A stretch of 64,000 nt of DNA, taken from Alcanivorax sp. DSM 26293. GTDB lineage: Bacteria > Pseudomonadota > Gammaproteobacteria > Pseudomonadales > Alcanivoracaceae. Below are positions 3,408 through 11,056 of the stretch, piece by piece (within the stretch, counting starts at the first letter, position 1; every line of letters starts with the position of its first letter). A program made the position numbers and the translations under genes. The notes below the pieces were generated by a model. That model was not told the origin of the DNA and searched no databases. It saw only the letters and a program-made list of their open reading frames with translations. The DNA is taken from positions 1-64,000 of the forward strand of contig NZ_FNUM01000002.1 of the NCBI RefSeq assembly GCF_900107995.1. The letters run 5' to 3'.

Positions 3408-4922
3408 ATGACCAGTAAAGCGAAGATTTCCGCAAAGACGATTTCCGTGGATGTGGCCATCGTGGGCGCCGGTTTCGGCGGGCTGTGCATGGCGATCAAG
3501 CTGCGTGAGGCGGGCAACGAGGATTTTGTGATCCTGGAAAAGGCGGCAGAAGTGGGCGGGGCCTGGTACTTCAATGGCTATCCTGGGGCGGCCTGCGATG
3601 TGCAGTCGCACCTGTATTCCTTCTCGTTCGCCGGCAAGGCGGACTGGAGCAAGCGCTATGCGCCCCGGGACGAAATCGAGAACTACATTCTCGACACCGT
3701 GGAGCAGTATCAGCTGCGGCCCTTTATCCAGTTCAACCAGGAAGTGAACGAAGCCCATTTTGATGAAACCACCGGCCGCTGGACCGTGCGCACCGCGGCG
3801 GGCATGACCATTGATTGCCGCCACTTTGTGCTGGCCTCCGGCCCGTTGCATGTGCCGAACGTGCCCAACATCAAGGGCCTCAAGCGCTTCAAGGGCAAGG
3901 TGATGCATTCCGCCGAGTGGGATCATGGCTATGATCTGGTGGGCAAGAAGGTGGTGTCCATCGGCACCGGTGGCAGCGCCATTCAGTACTGCCCGGAAAT
4001 CGCCCCCAAGGTGAAGAAACTGTCCGTGTTCCAGCGCAGCGCGGCCTGGGTGATTCCCCGGGATGAGCGCGGTTACTGGGGGATTCAACAGCGGCTGTTC
4101 AAGCGTTTCCCGGCGCTGCGTAAACTGCATCGGGCGCGGCTGTACTGGAGCAATGAATCCCGGGTGGCGCCGGCTTCCAGCCCGAAGGCGGCGCAACTGC
4201 TGGGTGCCCTGTGCAAGCAGTTCATTCGTTTGCAGGTGAAGGACAAGGCGCTGGTGAAGGCGCTGACCCCGGATTACACCTTCGGCTGCAAACGGGTGCT
4301 GATTTCCAACAAGTGGTATCCCATGTTCAACCGCGACAATGTGGAGCTGGTCACTGCGGGTATCCGCGAGGTGAAAGCCCACAGCGTGGTCACTGAAGAC
4401 GGGGTAGAGCATGAAGCGGATTGCATCATTCTTGGCACCGGCTTTGTGGTGGATCCGCGTATCTACATGAAAGATTTTCCGCTCACCGGGTTGCCGGGCC
4501 ATGATCTTCATAAGGACTGGGCCAAGTCTGCGGAAGCGCATTACGGCGTTACCGTCAGCGGCTACCCGAACCTGTTTATGCTGGTGGGGCCTAATACTGG
4601 CCTTGGTCATAACTCCATCGTGTTCATGATCGAGTGTCAGGTGAAATATATCCTGCAATGCATGGCGCTGCTGCGTGAGGAAGGCGCGGATTATCTGGAT
4701 GTGAAACCGAAAGCCCAGGAAGCCTTTAACGCCAACGTGCAGCGTCGCCTGCAGGGCACCACCTGGACCTCCGGTTGCACCAGCTGGTACCAACAGGACG
4801 ACGGCAAGAACTTCGCCCTGTGGCCGGGTTCCACCTGGCGCTACTGGCTGGAAACCCGCAACGTGCGCTCCACGGATTATGAGTTTGTGTGTGCCAATGC
4901 TGAGGCAACGGTGGAAGCCTGA
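3408..4922 (+). CDS. Type I Baeyer-Villiger-like flavin monooxygenase
   Basis: This 504-residue flavoprotein has an FAD-binding GAGFGG (residues 20-25), an NADPH-binding GTGGSA (about 186-191) and, between them, the fingerprint FKGKVMHSAEWD (residues 161-172). That fingerprint matches FxGxxxHxxxW(P/D) of type I Baeyer-Villiger monooxygenases. It should insert one oxygen atom from O2 into a ketone or long-chain substrate using NADPH. AlmA long-chain alkane hydroxylases belong to the same superfamily, so that role is possible but not shown. GGAGG precedes the ATG. Co-transcription with the upstream hydrolase is likely (13-base gap), and a rho-independent terminator follows at 4950. Confidence 0.88.
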   Translation: MTSKAKISAKTISVDVAIVGAGFGGLCMAIKLREAGNEDFVILEKAAEVGGAWYFNGYPGAACDVQSHLYSFSFAGKADWSKRYAPRDEIENYILDTVEQYQLRPFIQFNQEVNEAHFDETTGRWTVRTAAGMTIDCRHFVLASGPLHVPNVPNIKGLKRFKGKVMHSAEWDHGYDLVGKKVVSIGTGGSAIQYCPEIAPKVKKLSVFQRSAAWVIPRDERGYWGIQQRLFKRFPALRKLHRARLYWSNESRVAPASSPKAAQLLGALCKQFIRLQVKDKALVKALTPDYTFGCKRVLISNKWYPMFNRDNVELVTAGIREVKAHSVVTEDGVEHEADCIILGTGFVVDPRIYMKDFPLTGLPGHDLHKDWAKSAEAHYGVTVSGYPNLFMLVGPNTGLGHNSIVFMIECQVKYILQCMALLREEGADYLDVKPKAQEAFNANVQRRLQGTTWTSGCTSWYQQDDGKNFALWPGSTWRYWLETRNVRSTDYEFVCANAEATVEA

Positions 4923-4949
4923 CGGGTTTTGAGTCTGCGTTAAGAGAGA

Positions 4950-4975
4950 GGGGCAGCCTGGGCTGCCCCTTTTTT
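4950..4975 (+). terminator. Rho-independent terminator after the monooxygenase
   Basis: A GC-rich stem GGGGCAGCC/GGCTGCCCC with a 2-base loop is followed by six T residues. It ends the hydrolase/monooxygenase unit. Confidence 0.85.
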
Positions 4976-5042
4976 GTGGCGGGTGGTTCTGGCATTGCGG
5001 ATGGCTTGTGGTAAAAAAGGGGAGAAATAAGCCGGCCAGAGA

Positions 5043-5513
5043 ATGTTGATGAGAAAAATAGCCCCGATTATCGCTGCTGTGACAGTGCTGGCACTGTACG
5101 GGCTGGATAACCTGCGAGAGGACAGCACCGTCAGCCAGGCGCCGGCTCAGGCCCCCCGGACGGAATTGCCCGCCGCTGCCGGTGATAGCCTGATTCAGGC
5201 GGCCTATGAAAACCGGCAAAGCGATGTTCAGGTAGAAGGGGCCGGTCGGGTGGTCAAGGTGCTGCCGGACGACAACAAGGGTAGCCGCCACCAGAAATTC
5301 ATTCTGGAGCTGGCCTCCGGCCAGACCTTTCTGGTCGCGCACAACATTGATCTGGCGCCCCGCATTCCAGACTTGCGTGAGGGCGACCGCGTCAGCTTCT
5401 ACGGTGAGTACGAGTGGAATGAGCGGGGAGGGGTGGTCCACTGGACCCACCATGATCCACAAGGCCGCCATGTGGGTGGCTGGTTGAAACACCAGGGCAA
5501 ACGTTACCAGTAA
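5043..5513 (+). CDS. DUF3465 family exported protein
   Basis: This 156-residue protein has a short N-terminal hydrophobic segment (residues 5-20) that could be a signal peptide or anchor, followed by a region resembling DUF3465. Recognisable pieces are [44 protein letters not shown] and the C-terminal [13 protein letters not shown]. Small OB-like proteins of this type occur in many marine gammaproteobacteria; their role is unknown. Two ATGs (5043 and 5049) are possible, and neither has a strong ribosome-binding site. A short hairpin (GCCGGAT/ATCCGGC, 5518-5533) follows the stop. Confidence 0.8.
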
Positions 5514-5853
5514 GTGAGCCGGATCCATCCGGCCCGCGCCACGACTGATACTGCTTTATCTCCCCTTGCCAGATCGCGGCTGCTTGCCGCAGACGGCGTC
5601 CTGCATTCCTGCGACCTAATCAGAAAGAGAACACTTTTGTGTCAGGGGCGAAATGCGCCGGCCCATGCGGGGCTGTTATCTGGAACGAAAGTGCTCCAAA
5701 TTTTGTTCCGGATTCGTGATGGACGTAGCAGATTAGGGCCGGGTTAGGTTCACAATGCGAGGGCAGAAATGACGAAGCAACCGCTTCGTTGTTCTGCAAC
5801 GGTGCCGGCAGACTCGCCGCACTGCACATATCAGCCATGACACGGAGGTCAAA
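5514..5853. other. Gene-free region upstream of the giant gene
   Basis: No supportable gene is visible. It holds a short hairpin directly after the preceding stop (5518-5533) and an inverted pair TCTGGAAC (5679-5686) / GTTCCGGA (5705-5712), which could be an operator. CGGAGGT (5842-5848) is the ribosome-binding site of the next gene. A promoter for the giant gene should lie here but I cannot pick one with confidence. Confidence 0.4.
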
Positions 5854-8800
5854 ATGGCAACGGACGATCGCTCTGGAAGCGACGACGCTTCCCCGTCTCT
5901 TTCTCTCACCAAAAAACATATTGATGCACTGACCCATCGTGTTCATCGCTTTGATGCCGGTATCAGCAAGCTTGAGGCCGAATCGAAAGCGATGAAAAAA
6001 CGCGGTGACGAGGCTGGTGCCGCCAGCCTTGATCGCAAAATCAAAGTGCTTCGCGACGAATTGATCGAGCTGCAGAATGAAGCTGCCAGCGCCCCGGAAA
6101 TCGCCAGCGCGCTAGGCCTGGAAAGTCGCCCACAGGCGGAACTGGCCGAGATTCCTGCCGTGGTCAAAGCGGCCAAGTTTGAAACCATGAACATCGAACT
6201 GAGTGAAGCAAAATACCAGAGCCTCACTCCCATCAGTAGCGAGTGGCCACGCCAGGGGCGGGTGGTGAAGGATGGTGTAGCCGAGCCCGTCCAGACCCTT
6301 GGCAAGGTGCGCATGCTGGTGAACAGCGAAGAGGGCCAGGCTGCGGAGAATCTGCCGTTTCGCCTGGAAGCGAAGGATGCCGACAGCGGCGAGGTATTGG
6401 TTCTGCGTAACGGCCATACCAACAAATTCGGCTATGCCTCGGTGAATCTGGGCAATTTTCCGCTCAGTCGTATCAGCGATATGCACATTGTCGTTGGCAA
6501 AGGCGGCAGCAATGAAGAGGGCGGTGATATTCAGCGCACCCCGGTGCTGAATGCGTCCATTGCCACCCACCGTGATCTGGGGGTTCCCCACCAGGTGGTG
6601 ATTCGTCCGGAGCTGCTGGACAAACTGAAGCCGCGCTTCCCGGGTCGGGATGGGCCGGAAATCCCCGGGACCATCGAAGATCCGGATGACATTGATATCA
6701 AGAATTCTCCTCGCTCTTTTGGTTTGAATGAAGAGCACGTGGACGGCAACTGCTGCCTGCGACCTCGCACGGAGTTCCCGGCGCGGGAATATCATTTCCG
6801 GCAGATTGTGCGGTTGAATGAACCGCTGCTGAACTTCCGTGAGAAAGGCATCTCTCGCCAGGATGTGCAGTCGCCGATTCCCTTTGGCGATGAGTCCCCG
6901 TCGGTTTATGGCCTGACCGGGGGAAACCTGCTTCTGGGTACGGTCAATATGTATCGTCAGGGCTGGTATCCCGTGGGCAGAGGGCTGGGCGAATTGCTGT
7001 ATTCCCTGGCATTGGCACCCTGTGAGCATGTGAATCTGGCATTTGTGGATTGGTCCAGAACACAGCGTGACACGCGGGTCGAGTCACGGGTCCAGCGCGA
7101 GCAGATGGAACATGAACTGAACCATGACCGTGCCATTGAAGAGGTGGTTGATTCGGTGCTCACCGAACGTCAGACCGGTGAATCCGGCAGTGGCGGTGGT
7201 GGTGCCAGCCTGGATCTGGGCTTTTTCAGCATTGGTGGGGGCGGCGGTAAGACCTCCAGTACCACCACCGGGCGACGGAGCCTGCAGGCGTCCACGGTCC
7301 AGGATATCTCCGATGAAGTCACCCAGCGGGCGTCGTCCATTCGCTCGCAACGTTCAACGGTGGTGACAACGTCCTCGCAGCGGGAATCCGAGCGTATTCA
7401 GACGCGCACGGTGCACAACCATAATCGCAATCACGCCATGACGGTGCAGTACTTTCAGGTACTGTCCCACTATTCGGTGAAAACCGAACTGGTGGAAGAG
7501 AAGCCGGTGGTGTTGGTGCCGTATGATATCGACGACGCCATTTTCGATGATATTCCCAGCTTCAATAAATTCAGACTGGCACCGAGCCGACCCATCACCC
7601 GGTTTCTTGATCGCCACTCCCGCCTGCTTCGTCGCATGGTTCCGCGCAGCTATAGCCGGGCGTTTGAATCGTTGTCACGACTGCTGCATTGCCGTGATGT
7701 GTACGATATCGAGACCCCCTATGCCACCTTTTCCCGGTGGAATATCCGCCTGGACAAGGCCTGGCGCCCCGGCCTGACGATCAGTATCGAAACCAATGAC
7801 GGGCAGAGCTTTCCGCTGACACCCCGGGGTGGCAGTGCGGACCAGGCCCCCGTGGAGTTTATTTCTGATCCTGTCAGAGCCGAAGATATCGAGGCCGTCC
7901 GCATCGGCTTTGATCCGGTTGAATCAGCACGGGTTACCGGCAACACCGGCATATTCGGTTTGCTGGGAGAGAGTCTCAATGATTTGCTCGAGCAGACCCT
8001 CAATCACAAACTGACCCGCATCGAGATCACGGCACGGACGGACCGTTCCCGGTTTGTGCCGGAGCGGCAGAGTTTCCGCCTGACGGTCGTGCAGCCGAAT
8101 GTGACGCTGAGTAATGACAATCCTCATGTCTCTCTGGACATCACACCGCCGACCATCAACTTTGATGGTTATCGTGGCCGTGAGCATCAAGACTACTGCA
8201 AGCTCAAGTCCCTGATTGCCTATATCCAGTCCCGCCCCATGCGTTTCCTGCGGGCCATCTGGTATATGGAGGACCCGGATCGTCGTGCCATGCGGTTTGA
8301 CCGCTTCCAGTTCCAGGGAAATTCCTTGCTGGATAGTATCGTCAACAAGCCGGTGGGAGTGCTCGGCAATTATGTGGCATTCGAATTACTCGAGGGCCAC
8401 AAACTGGTTCAGATTGATGCGCCCAACTACGTGGTTTCCAGTCGTATGGTCAGCCTGCCTACCCGGGGCGTCTTTGCGGAAGTGTTCCTGTCCTGTTGCA
8501 ACGCCACAGAGAAACGGGATGTGGAGCGCTTTATTGATCCAGACCAATCCTGCCAGAAGTCGGCACCGGAGATTACCGGTATTTCCCCGGGCTCACGGGC
8601 GCAGGGCAGCGACACCCGGCCTTCGGATTTCGCCACACCGATGATCAATTTGCAGAACGCGCCGGCGGTACCCAACCCGAATGGTATGACGGCAGGCCTG
8701 AATGTGATGGGCACGCCGGATATTTTCCGTGACCTTTCCCGGGGAGCGGAACTGCTTCAGTTTATCAATAACGCCACGAAAGAAGCGTTCACCAGCACCC

Positions 8801-10194
8801 GTCAACACCGCGCGGCCATGGATGCCATCGCCGGCGATGTGGTTCGCGGGCTGGTGTCGGCCTATACCGGTGTTCCCATCGGCTCCAGCGGCAAGCCGGC
8901 CACGGCCAGTTCCGGCACCAGCGGAATTCAATCCGCGCCGTCAGGCTCCGGTGGCAGTGGCGGGGCGGCAACGGGCAGTGCGGGTGACAATGGGGCCTTG
9001 CAGGCACTCACCGGCGAGATGGTGCGCCAGAGCTCTCCGTCACAGGTCAGCGATCATGTGCAAACCGTTAGACGGGCGGTGGAAAGTGGCCTGCTCAGTG
9101 AAGGGCAGGGCAATGCCATCACCAACTCCCTGTTGGGGGGAACGGCTGCCGGGATCCCGGACAGCACGGCGCCGGTGATCATCCTCACGGCACCCACCTC
9201 CCGAGATGGTCTGGCGTTTGGTCCGGCCACGGGGGATAAAAGTGGCGCCCTGGGCCTTTCGGTGAATGTGGAAGGCGAGCCGGAAGGGGCAACCGGTCGC
9301 TGGACCCGACCCAATCCCGCCGCCATGGCACTGTCATCACAAGAGGATGACAACATCACCGTCACGCCGCTGATTCCTGGATTGCAGGAGCTGGACTACA
9401 CCCTGAGAGACACGGCCGGCACCGCACTGGCGAGCATCAAGGTGCCCTTGTCCGTGCCGCAGTTTATCGCCGTGCGCGAGGATGCGGCGGCGTTTGATGC
9501 GGTACTGGCCAGTTATAGCCTGGATGACGTGAAACCCTCGGTGCTGCGGGCGGCCAAGGAAACCTGTGACCTGTTGTTGATGACGGCGAATGTCCGCACT
9601 GTTTGGGAAATGGCGCCATTCAATGAGGCATTGCCGGCCCAGTTTGCAGCGGGCGGGGCTGCCGCAAACCGGTTGACTGTCGCCACATTGCGGGGCAATC
9701 CGCCTTCGGCGGGTCTTGCTGGTCGTACGCAGGCGGGGACCGGTGGCATCGGCGCGACGGTGTATGACGAGACGATCTCCGTCTGGCCGGGGGCGTTCGA
9801 TGATGCGGCCGCCAGCGGCGCGGCCGGGGATGTGGATGATGCTACCCGCCAAGTGGTGCAGCAGATGCAGGGGCTGGATTTTACCGATCTTCGCCTCAAG
9901 CAACTGGCAATTGATATTGTCGGTCGACTCATCGGTGAAACCCTGGCCCATGAGGTGCTGCACAGTCTTCTCGGGTTCCTGATTCCCACCGGACACCACA
10001 ACCCGGCGGTGGCCAGTGACATCATGAATCGGGGCCTGGATCGCAGCTTCCAGAACCGGACCGGTTTTGAGGTCATCGACCTGGCCAACTTCCCGGATGA
10101 GGGCAGTTATTCCGATACGGGGATTGGCTTGATCAATATACCCACGGCGGTGACGCAGGATCTGATCGACCAGCATTTCCCGGTCTCAATCTAG
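5854..10194 (+). CDS. Giant multidomain protein with C-terminal HEVLH metalloprotease-like domain
   Basis: This 1446-residue protein has no signal peptide and no membrane helix. Residues about 18-80 form a charged coiled coil. A conserved-looking core near 370-391 reads GWYPVGRGLGELLYSLALAP. A Gly/Ser linker (about 445-470) leads into a Ser/Thr/Arg-rich helical stretch (about 470-530). A second Gly/Ser/Ala linker lies near 1010-1048. The C-terminal domain carries HEVLHSLLGFLIPTGHH (H1366, E1367, H1370, H1381/H1382), a zinc-protease motif with wider spacing than the classical metzincin HExxHxxGxxH. A self-processing or delivered enzyme is conceivable, but no function is known to me. CGGAGGT precedes the ATG. 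The gene stands alone, with 340 and 151 bases of non-coding DNA on its sides. Confidence 0.9.
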   Translation: MATDDRSGSDDASPSLSLTKKHIDALTHRVHRFDAGISKLEAESKAMKKRGDEAGAASLDRKIKVLRDELIELQNEAASAPEIASALGLESRPQAELAEIPAVVKAAKFETMNIELSEAKYQSLTPISSEWPRQGRVVKDGVAEPVQTLGKVRMLVNSEEGQAAENLPFRLEAKDADSGEVLVLRNGHTNKFGYASVNLGNFPLSRISDMHIVVGKGGSNEEGGDIQRTPVLNASIATHRDLGVPHQVVIRPELLDKLKPRFPGRDGPEIPGTIEDPDDIDIKNSPRSFGLNEEHVDGNCCLRPRTEFPAREYHFRQIVRLNEPLLNFREKGISRQDVQSPIPFGDESPSVYGLTGGNLLLGTVNMYRQGWYPVGRGLGELLYSLALAPCEHVNLAFVDWSRTQRDTRVESRVQREQMEHELNHDRAIEEVVDSVLTERQTGESGSGGGGASLDLGFFSIGGGGGKTSSTTTGRRSLQASTVQDISDEVTQRASSIRSQRSTVVTTSSQRESERIQTRTVHNHNRNHAMTVQYFQVLSHYSVKTELVEEKPVVLVPYDIDDAIFDDIPSFNKFRLAPSRPITRFLDRHSRLLRRMVPRSYSRAFESLSRLLHCRDVYDIETPYATFSRWNIRLDKAWRPGLTISIETNDGQSFPLTPRGGSADQAPVEFISDPVRAEDIEAVRIGFDPVESARVTGNTGIFGLLGESLNDLLEQTLNHKLTRIEITARTDRSRFVPERQSFRLTVVQPNVTLSNDNPHVSLDITPPTINFDGYRGREHQDYCKLKSLIAYIQSRPMRFLRAIWYMEDPDRRAMRFDRFQFQGNSLLDSIVNKPVGVLGNYVAFELLEGHKLVQIDAPNYVVSSRMVSLPTRGVFAEVFLSCCNATEKRDVERFIDPDQSCQKSAPEITGISPGSRAQGSDTRPSDFATPMINLQNAPAVPNPNGMTAGLNVMGTPDIFRDLSRGAELLQFINNATKEAFTSTRQHRAAMDAIAGDVVRGLVSAYTGVPIGSSGKPATASSGTSGIQSAPSGSGGSGGAATGSAGDNGALQALTGEMVRQSSPSQVSDHVQTVRRAVESGLLSEGQGNAITNSLLGGTAAGIPDSTAPVIILTAPTSRDGLAFGPATGDKSGALGLSVNVEGEPEGATGRWTRPNPAAMALSSQEDDNITVTPLIPGLQELDYTLRDTAGTALASIKVPLSVPQFIAVREDAAAFDAVLASYSLDDVKPSVLRAAKETCDLLLMTANVRTVWEMAPFNEALPAQFAAGGAAANRLTVATLRGNPPSAGLAGRTQAGTGGIGATVYDETISVWPGAFDDAAASGAAGDVDDATRQVVQQMQGLDFTDLRLKQLAIDIVGRLIGETLAHEVLHSLLGFLIPTGHHNPAVASDIMNRGLDRSFQNRTGFEVIDLANFPDEGSYSDTGIGLINIPTAVTQDLIDQHFPVSI

Positions 10195-10345
10195 TCCTCG
10201 AACCCGAGAAAGCCCTGGCGTCCCCATCTATGGGTCGTCAGGGCAATCCGGTGGTACCTGCCACCGTCCCGCAAATTTCGCGAGCCCGGTCTGGCACTCT
10301 GTCAGACCCCATTACGGAGACCGCCGGCTCCGTTATCATGTCTCC

Positions 10346-11056
10346 ATGACCTCCCGATACCATCGTCTTGACCGTTTCCTCAGCGCTCGCCTGCAGATCA
10401 GCCGAAGCAATCTGCGGTTATTGCTGGCTGGCGGCCGTGTCCAGGTTAACGGTCAGGTTGAAGGGGATCGGCAACGACGGATTGGTCCGTTCGACAGGGT
10501 GGTTTGCGACGGCGAGATTCTGCAGGCAAACCGGCCCCGTTATCTGATGCTCAACAAGCCTGCCGCAGTGGTCAGTGCCACCCGTGATGATCATCACCCC
10601 ACGGTGCTGGATCTGCTACCGGAGGATCAGCGTGATGGGCTGCACCTGGCCGGGCGGCTGGACTTCAATACCACCGGCCTGGTGTTGCTGACCAACGATG
10701 GCGACTGGTCCCGGCAGTTGAGTCAGCCGGAGAATCAGGTGCGCAAGCATTATCGGGTGACACTGGAAAAGCCGTTAACCGACGACTATGTGACGGCGTT
10801 TGCCGAGGGGATGTGGTTTGAGTACGAAGGCATTACGACGCGCCCTGCGGCGCTGAAAATTCGTACCCCGTTTGAGGCAGACGTGTGGCTTTGCGAGGGC
10901 CGCTATCACCAGATCAAACGCATGTTCGGGCGTTTTGATAACAAGGTGCTGACGCTGCATCGGCTGGCGATTGGTAATTTGGTGCTGGATGAAACGTTGA
11001 AGCCGGGCGAATGGCGGGCGCTTTCGGCGTTGGAGGTGTCCTCCATTTTTTCATGA
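10346..11056 (+). CDS. rsuA: 16S rRNA pseudouridine(516) synthase RsuA
   Basis: This 236-residue protein converts a uridine of 16S rRNA to pseudouridine. An N-terminal S4 RNA-binding domain (residues about 5-50, LDRFLSARLQISRS...LAGGRVQVNG) is followed by the RluB/RsuA catalytic domain. The active-site GRLDFNTTGLVLLTNDG contains the catalytic Asp (about residue 112), and EGRYHQIKRMF is the conserved C-terminal motif. Length matches E. coli RsuA. The assignment as RsuA rather than a paralogue such as RluE/RluB rests on the S4 domain and size. Confidence 0.85.
   Translation: MTSRYHRLDRFLSARLQISRSNLRLLLAGGRVQVNGQVEGDRQRRIGPFDRVVCDGEILQANRPRYLMLNKPAAVVSATRDDHHPTVLDLLPEDQRDGLHLAGRLDFNTTGLVLLTNDGDWSRQLSQPENQVRKHYRVTLEKPLTDDYVTAFAEGMWFEYEGITTRPAALKIRTPFEADVWLCEGRYHQIKRMFGRFDNKVLTLHRLAIGNLVLDETLKPGEWRALSALEVSSIFS

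Follow-up and report, generated by a model that had tools for sequence, protein, structure and literature searches.

A lone, modular 1446-residue protein of Alcanivorax from an apparently undescribed family with exchangeable C-terminal tails

Polymorphic toxins, as set out in PMC3482391, consist of a constant head and core followed by a C-terminal catalytic domain that is exchanged by recombination, and they are distributed patchily as accessory genes. Toxins of contractile injection systems also carry variable toxic cargo, and HExxH peptidases are a recurrent partner there, according to PMC11297309. A gene resembling both in these respects was analyzed in Alcanivorax sp. DSM 26293, within a window of 64,000 nucleotides (positions 1 to 64,000 of contig NZ_FNUM01000002.1). 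Its product of 1446 residues is a member of a family that appears to be undescribed, with exchangeable C-terminal tails borne on a conserved core; the existence of the family and the exchange of its tails are both nearly certain. Loci of relatives are labeled L plus a number and scanned genomes G plus a number.

Tail exchange was assessed in the 66 members with at least 240 tail residues and at least 150 head residues. Of the 81 pairs with core identity of at least 70%, all 81 had homologous heads and 29 had homologous tails, and after removal of two Alcanivorax near-copies the remaining 74 pairs had homologous heads in 74 cases and homologous tails in 24. At core identities of 40-60% (403 pairs), 301 pairs had homologous heads and 15 had homologous tails. 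The constant N-terminal part and exchangeable C-terminal domain by which polymorphic toxins are recognized were both found in this family. The tail of the window protein was 48.9% identical to that of Geofilum L084 at a core identity of 31.8%, and the tails of L084 and L080 were 48.5% identical at a core identity of 69.7%; since tail identity is similar at such different core identities, the window-type tail has moved between distant cores. Between the window protein and Marinobacter L041, both from isolates, the cores were 70.2% identical and the L041 tail had no detectable homology. Tails also differed within one clade of 11 rows at core identities of 72-91%, and the archaeal MAG row ANME-2 L077 and the bacterial MAG row Tharpella L070 shared 88% core identity with unrelated tails. 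Rows from archaeal metagenome-assembled genomes (MAGs) lie inside this clade, and contamination is possible for these because L107 and L109 represent a single sequence to which two organism names are attached; among the archaeal cases Haladaptatus is more secure. L107 and L109 hold an identical pair of frames, under the MAG names Nitrospira and Mesorhizobium, and one of the two bins is probably contaminated. Tails were clustered by single linkage, and as one cluster of 50 tails mixes types, the resulting 25 clusters are a rough count.

Recognizable tails were mostly hydrolytic. Pfam matches at E<=0.01 across 76 tails comprised Peptidase_C70 (7), GH25 (3), OmpA (3), Amidase_6 (2), Peptidase_C39_2 (2), and CHAP (2), with M15_4, DUF922, DUF2272, PETase, Chlorophyllase, Abhydrolase_3, and DUF3238 in single tails and three further labels that seem spurious; several labels can fall on one member. 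Amidase_2 was detected in one of 14 full-length relatives. The tail of the window protein itself matched nothing in Pfam at this threshold. DUF2272 and Amidase_6 are papain-like, and some of their members cleave peptidoglycan, as stated in PMC10318531.

An HExxH motif was present in 15 of 88 tails, namely the ten of the window type, HELGHTFSLYH in L028, the DUF922 tail of L067, and three forms in L100, L101, and L117. In all ten members with the window-type tail H1366, E1367, H1370, G1380, H1381, D1389, M1391, and N1392 were invariant. An earlier first-pass annotation had proposed a metalloprotease-like domain at the C-terminus, its third ligand set at a widened spacing, and had treated non-conserved histidines as evidence to the contrary; the proposal is supported by HEVLH at residues 1366-1370 and by a spacing of 11-13 residues between second and third histidine across these ten members. 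The position assigned to the third histidine required correction, as it had been placed 10 residues after the second; GHH starts at G1380, and H1381 lies 11 past H1370, with 10 residues between. The window tail is likely a zinc-metalloprotease-like domain, with H1366, H1370, and H1381 as putative ligands and E1367 as the putative base. Metzincins have the motif HExxHxxGxxH/D, with a spacing of 6 from second to third ligand, and a Met-turn after the third ligand, while the aspzincins have as third ligand an Asp about 11 residues beyond the second His. The window tail resembles both in its HExxH and later third ligand, with a Met beyond (invariant M1391, 10 residues past H1381), but differs from metzincins in the spacing of 11-13 with His. 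Window-type tails had no significant match to Pfam metallopeptidase families; SprT-like matches in two of the ten members (best E 0.014) were not significant and may reflect HExxH alone.

Relatives were collected by a species-genome scan seeded with one short peptide pattern from the core (residues 345-1003), which returned 134 stretches, 131 of them relatives, and the best 80 of the 131 were retained for analysis. As the pattern covers part of residues 527-536, the conservation of this segment is in part a product of the search itself. L064 and L087, two of the 80 loci fetched, had no frame in the family cluster and were dropped. The best 80 relatives included Pseudomonadota, Actinomycetota, Bacteroidota, Acidobacteriota, Chloroflexota, Bacillota, Myxococcota, and others, as well as two archaeal MAGs. 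Relatives were also found in 27 plasmid records, 18 of these from Streptomyces, and plasmid copies occurred in Polaromonas, Nostoc, Psychrobacter, Streptomyces, and the archaeon Haladaptatus. The core profile matched five annotated plasmid proteins at E 4e-158 or better, including one from the archaeal isolate Haladaptatus sp. QDMS2. The plasmid proteins are annotated as 'hypothetical protein', 'OmpA family protein', or 'DUF2272 domain-containing protein', names derived from the tail if from any part. The family spans many bacterial phyla and archaea and has plasmid copies as well. One full member, with a DUF2272 tail, is encoded on a plasmid of a haloarchaeon (L152:9622-13695).

Within the class of the host, 10 of 369 genomes matched a single-sequence query and 12 of 369 matched a 12-row core profile; four of those 12 (G157, G268, G021, and G126) were weak matches in short frames of 435-484 residues. 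Four of the 17 genomes of the genus matched, the host included and G374 distantly. The window-type tail was found in two of 299 Pseudomonadota genomes, again including the host. Phage or prophage origin was considered and rejected: viral contigs yielded 28 pattern matches and no relatives, and phage records one weak match (25.8% identity over 12% of the query). Paired family frames lie side by side in L083, L088, L090, and L107, and the cores of the L088 pair are identical in the columns used. Two Legionella species (L053 and L114) have family members with closely similar tails.

Library searches are consistent with an undescribed family. No match to the window protein exceeded the Pfam cut-off (best DUF6167, E 0.27, 11.8 bits against 27), PHROGs gave none up to E 1, and NCBIfam and PADLOC gave none at E<=0.01; the strong match to a well characterized family that the first-pass annotation had set against its own proposal was therefore absent from all four. 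When PDB sequences were searched by phmmer with the whole protein, the 11 matches were weak (best alphaRep, E 0.016) and were taken as chance, and the core and tail profiles gave zero matches there. Neither a description of the family nor any of five core motif strings was found in the accessible literature searched, a body that leaves most subscription journals and preprints outside.

The core alignment comprised 71 sequences, including 70 of the 77 eligible relatives (L104, L106, L114, L116, L092, and both L109 frames were excluded). Residues ~359-563 were practically free of gaps and insertions except at 454-458, within a Gly-rich loop. The motifs GELLYSLALAPCE (from residue 380), DWSR (399), and NHNRNHAMTVQY (522) lie in this block of ~205 residues; GELLYSLALAPCE had been noted earlier for its conserved look. 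Alignment-averaged hydrophobic moments suggest helices flanking the loop (~411-445 and ~473-508), and because these putative helices stand on each side and insertions and deletions are confined to the loop, this part of the core is interpreted as a hairpin whose tip varies in length. The second of the two Gly/Ser linkers noted at first (~1010-1047) is linker-like, while the first (~446-471) is better regarded as this conserved inter-helix loop than as a loose linker. Over the hairpin part, the best 19-residue mean hydropathy ranged from -0.03 to 1.99 across members and was 0.55 in the window protein. Two short distant relatives share almost all the tip letters of the window protein, which suggests that the tip is functional. 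Membrane contact is plausible for a hairpin with a Gly-rich tip, although action of the hairpin in a membrane is judged somewhat improbable. Short relatives of ~435-484 residues occur at L032:5561-6919 and L033:9290-10693, and also in G021 and G126; those in L032 and L033 have the hairpin, with tip letters nearly as in the window protein, and no enzyme-like tail, and L033 has no Pfam match.

The 1446 residues are encoded by a single frame with start, stop, and length as first annotated, present once in the host genome and of a guanine-plus-cytosine content (0.591) close to that of the whole window (0.592). Ratios of nonsynonymous to synonymous substitution (dN/dS) of 0.05 against A. jadensis and 0.083 against Alcanivorax sp. 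S6407 demonstrate that the frame is under purifying selection; dS against the MAG L040 was saturated. No signal-like stretch was found within the first 80 residues of any of 93 family members by a crude hydropathy test (not SignalP), in agreement with the signal peptide reported absent at first. Among 94 family frames, 93 matched core residues 345-600 and 88 matched 780-1010, but head residues 1-110 were matched in 5 and tail residues 1215-1446 in 10 (Table 1). Heads fell into three large classes (32, 28, and 27 of 90). Pfam gave no match to the head of the window protein; CarboxypepD_reg was found in 2 and PA-IL in 3 of 34 full-length relatives, with PA-IL in none of the 76 tails and 10 heads scanned and hence not located. 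A Big_2 match at the first tail segment (1103-1227) in one of ten members was not significant (E 0.15).

Table 1. Features of the 1446-residue gene and its product, with window coordinates.
Feature	Coordinates	Strand	Basis
Whole gene, 1446 aa, unnamed modular family	5854..10194	+	Frame and relatives
Head segment, residues 1-110	5854..6183	+	In 5/94 family frames (window, two Alcanivorax, a MAG, Marinobacter)
Proposed coiled coil, within residues 1-110	5854..6183	+	Call of the first-pass annotation
Second head segment, residues 154-323	6313..6822	+	Shared more widely; head class of 28/90 members
Conserved core, residues 345-1003, with variable middle ~600-780	6886..8862	+	Alignment
Near indel-free block, residues ~359-563	6928..7542	+	71-sequence alignment
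Putative hairpin helix 1, residues ~411-445	7084..7188	+	Alignment-averaged hydrophobic moment
Gly-rich tip of putative hairpin, residues ~446-471	7189..7266	+	Sole site of length variation in the block; hydropathy
Putative hairpin helix 2, residues ~473-508	7270..7377	+	Alignment-averaged hydrophobic moment
Gly/Ser linker, core to tail, residues ~1010-1047	8881..8994	+	Sequence; region in 6/94 family frames
First tail segment, residues 1103-1227, perhaps Ig-like	9160..9534	+	Segment comparison
Metalloprotease-like tail, residues 1215-1446	9496..10191	+	Common to 10 family frames
HEVLH, with H1366, E1367, and H1370	9949..9963	+	Three named residues invariant in 10/10
G1380 and H1381	9991..9996	+	Invariant in 10/10
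D1389-I-M1391-N1392, possible Met-turn	10018..10029	+	D, M, and N invariant in 10/10

The gene stands alone. It is preceded by a flavin monooxygenase-like gene (3408-4919) and a DUF3465 gene (5043-5513) and followed by an S4/pseudouridine synthase gene (10346-11056), the last of which is present in all 17 genus genomes. The site was compared in 10 of these 17. The family gene is missing from the site in G374 and G369, where 74 bp separate the DUF3465 gene from the pseudouridine synthase gene, and because these two join directly at this empty site, nothing else arrived with the family gene. The family gene occupies the site in G371 and G379, G383 lacks both it and the DUF3465 gene there, and other genes were found in G375, G376, G370, G372, and G377. 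The interval from the monooxygenase-like gene to the pseudouridine synthase gene (4920-10345), with its differing genes among congeners, may be a variable site. No direct repeats of 9-20 bp were found between the two flanking gaps. Across 90 loci (the window, 80 fetched, and 9 from the genome search) no neighbor recurred at a fixed position; the largest non-family neighbor cluster held 20 open reading frames (ORFs) in 14 loci at varying offsets, and representatives of six neighbor clusters were common families (response regulator, short-chain dehydrogenase, kinase (twice), ABC ATPase, and LysR). The initial description of a lone giant gene outside the neighboring pathways holds in the absence of any conserved neighbor. 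A link to contractile injection or type VI secretion, for which co-occurrence had been raised at first, was not supported: neither Baseplate_J nor VipB was found in the host genome, and among 14 carrier genomes Baseplate_J was present in 3 and VipB in 1 (counts without a background rate).

We tentatively favor, at a likelihood a little short of even, the reading of the gene product as a self-contained modular carrier that resembles an effector or exolysin and ends in a polymorphic enzymatic tail. The variable head would probably serve recognition or presentation, and the conserved core, with its helical hairpin and Gly-rich tip, would bear the exchangeable C-terminal enzyme. The protein would exit the cell without a signal peptide, through lysis or some other route, head and core would bind it to a second cell or to a particle, the tip of the hairpin could engage or enter a membrane, and the window tail may then cut proteins at the target membrane or cell. 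A delivered effector had been among the initial proposals, beside a self-cleaving effector and a large sensor protein, and the effector reading gains strength because the window tail is one among many exchangeable, mostly hydrolytic tails on a shared core, whereas delivery by contractile or type VI machinery is not supported. Wall-directed tails would point to bacterial targets, and the C70 and metalloprotease tails to protein targets. Rather unlikely is the bolder idea of a so far undescribed single-polypeptide delivery platform common to bacterial phyla and archaea, in which one conserved core with a membrane-engaging hairpin would carry any of dozens of exchangeable enzymes to or into other cells with no secretion machine and, as a gene travelling alone, would pass from one domain of life to another. 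Several points weigh against the carrier reading. No export route is known for family proteins, no recognized trafficking domain was found as a significant Pfam match in the window protein or its head, and an adjacent immunity gene was neither found at the window locus nor fixed in the family. Many tails have no recognized domain, those that act on peptidoglycan need no crossing of the inner membrane, and the family scan rests on a single short pattern. The hairpin tip of the window protein is mildly hydrophobic (0.55, against up to 1.99 in relatives) and the best hydropathy window lies outside the tip in some relatives, and membrane insertion is therefore weak for this copy.

Other explanations account for part of the same evidence. 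A constant head and core with a variable tail, and peptidoglycan-directed tails of the sort counted among toxin types in PMC3482391, would also fit a classical polymorphic toxin for interbacterial competition, served by a known secretion system and an immunity protein. This is unlikely, since a same-strand ORF within 60 bp downstream was no more frequent in the family (14 of 87 members) than among control ORFs (138 of 566; crude ORF list), the empty congener site shows no companion gene (distant immunity genes in the genome were not searched for), the N-terminus is not signal-like, and the host genome lacks VipB and Baseplate_J. The family was not filed among polymorphic toxins because the adjacent immunity gene and known trafficking signature looked for were not found, but it is taken to act in a similar manner, bringing a hydrolase to another cell. 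The lack of an adjacent immunity gene might instead indicate an effector against eukaryotic hosts or predators such as grazers and invertebrates, an argument made for latrotoxin-CTD toxins in PMC3482391, and AvrRpt2-like C70 tails in 7 of 76 would suit such a role. The GH25, CHAP, M15, and amidase tails act on peptidoglycan and indicate bacterial targets, however, and some of the carriers are archaea or live free in the sea or in soil; the probability of a eukaryote-directed effector is accordingly low, ranking below that of a defence protein.

Such an intracellular defence or stress protein, whose core would sense an invader and whose tail would attack cell components so that the infection is ended, is consistent with a lone, patchy accessory gene with an empty site and with plasmid copies, one of them beside restriction genes. 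It is nevertheless decidedly unlikely: PADLOC returned ZorB/MotB alone, in one of 34 members, a match in keeping with the OmpA-type tail of that member, recurrent defence-island neighbors were not found, and wall hydrolases and OmpA domains work outside the cytoplasm. Least probable of all is an extracellular or surface scaffold with tails for feeding, wall remodeling, or adhesion and no role in conflict. OmpA, PETase-like, and GH25 tails would agree with it, as would PA-IL in full-length relatives despite its absence from scanned tails and heads, but exchange of tails between cores that are 80-90% identical, and a distribution over phyla and domains, are features seen more typically in conflict proteins, and none of the 93 N-termini was signal-like.

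A core of ~650 residues without a library match here occurs in many bacterial phyla and archaea and bears exchangeable enzymatic tails. If this core serves as a platform for delivery or anchoring and requires no partner genes, it would add a simple class to the conflict proteins, and its tails would offer unnamed families of peptidases and wall hydrolases. Because presence and absence between congeners amounts to one clean gene, function is directly testable by deletion.

Set against the known systems, the family departs from polymorphic toxins in having no recognized trafficking domain, signal-like N-terminus, or fixed adjacent immunity gene, and further in its common wall-hydrolase and peptidase tails and in near-identical cores across archaea and bacteria. 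From contractile-injection toxins it is set apart by the absence of Baseplate_J from the window genome and likewise from 11 of 14 carrier genomes. Alpha-helical pore-forming toxins have a hairpin with a hydrophobic tip. The family has no sequence match to them in any library, yet its two putative helices of similar length and its variable hydrophobic tip may resemble that arrangement, a likeness offered as a lead.

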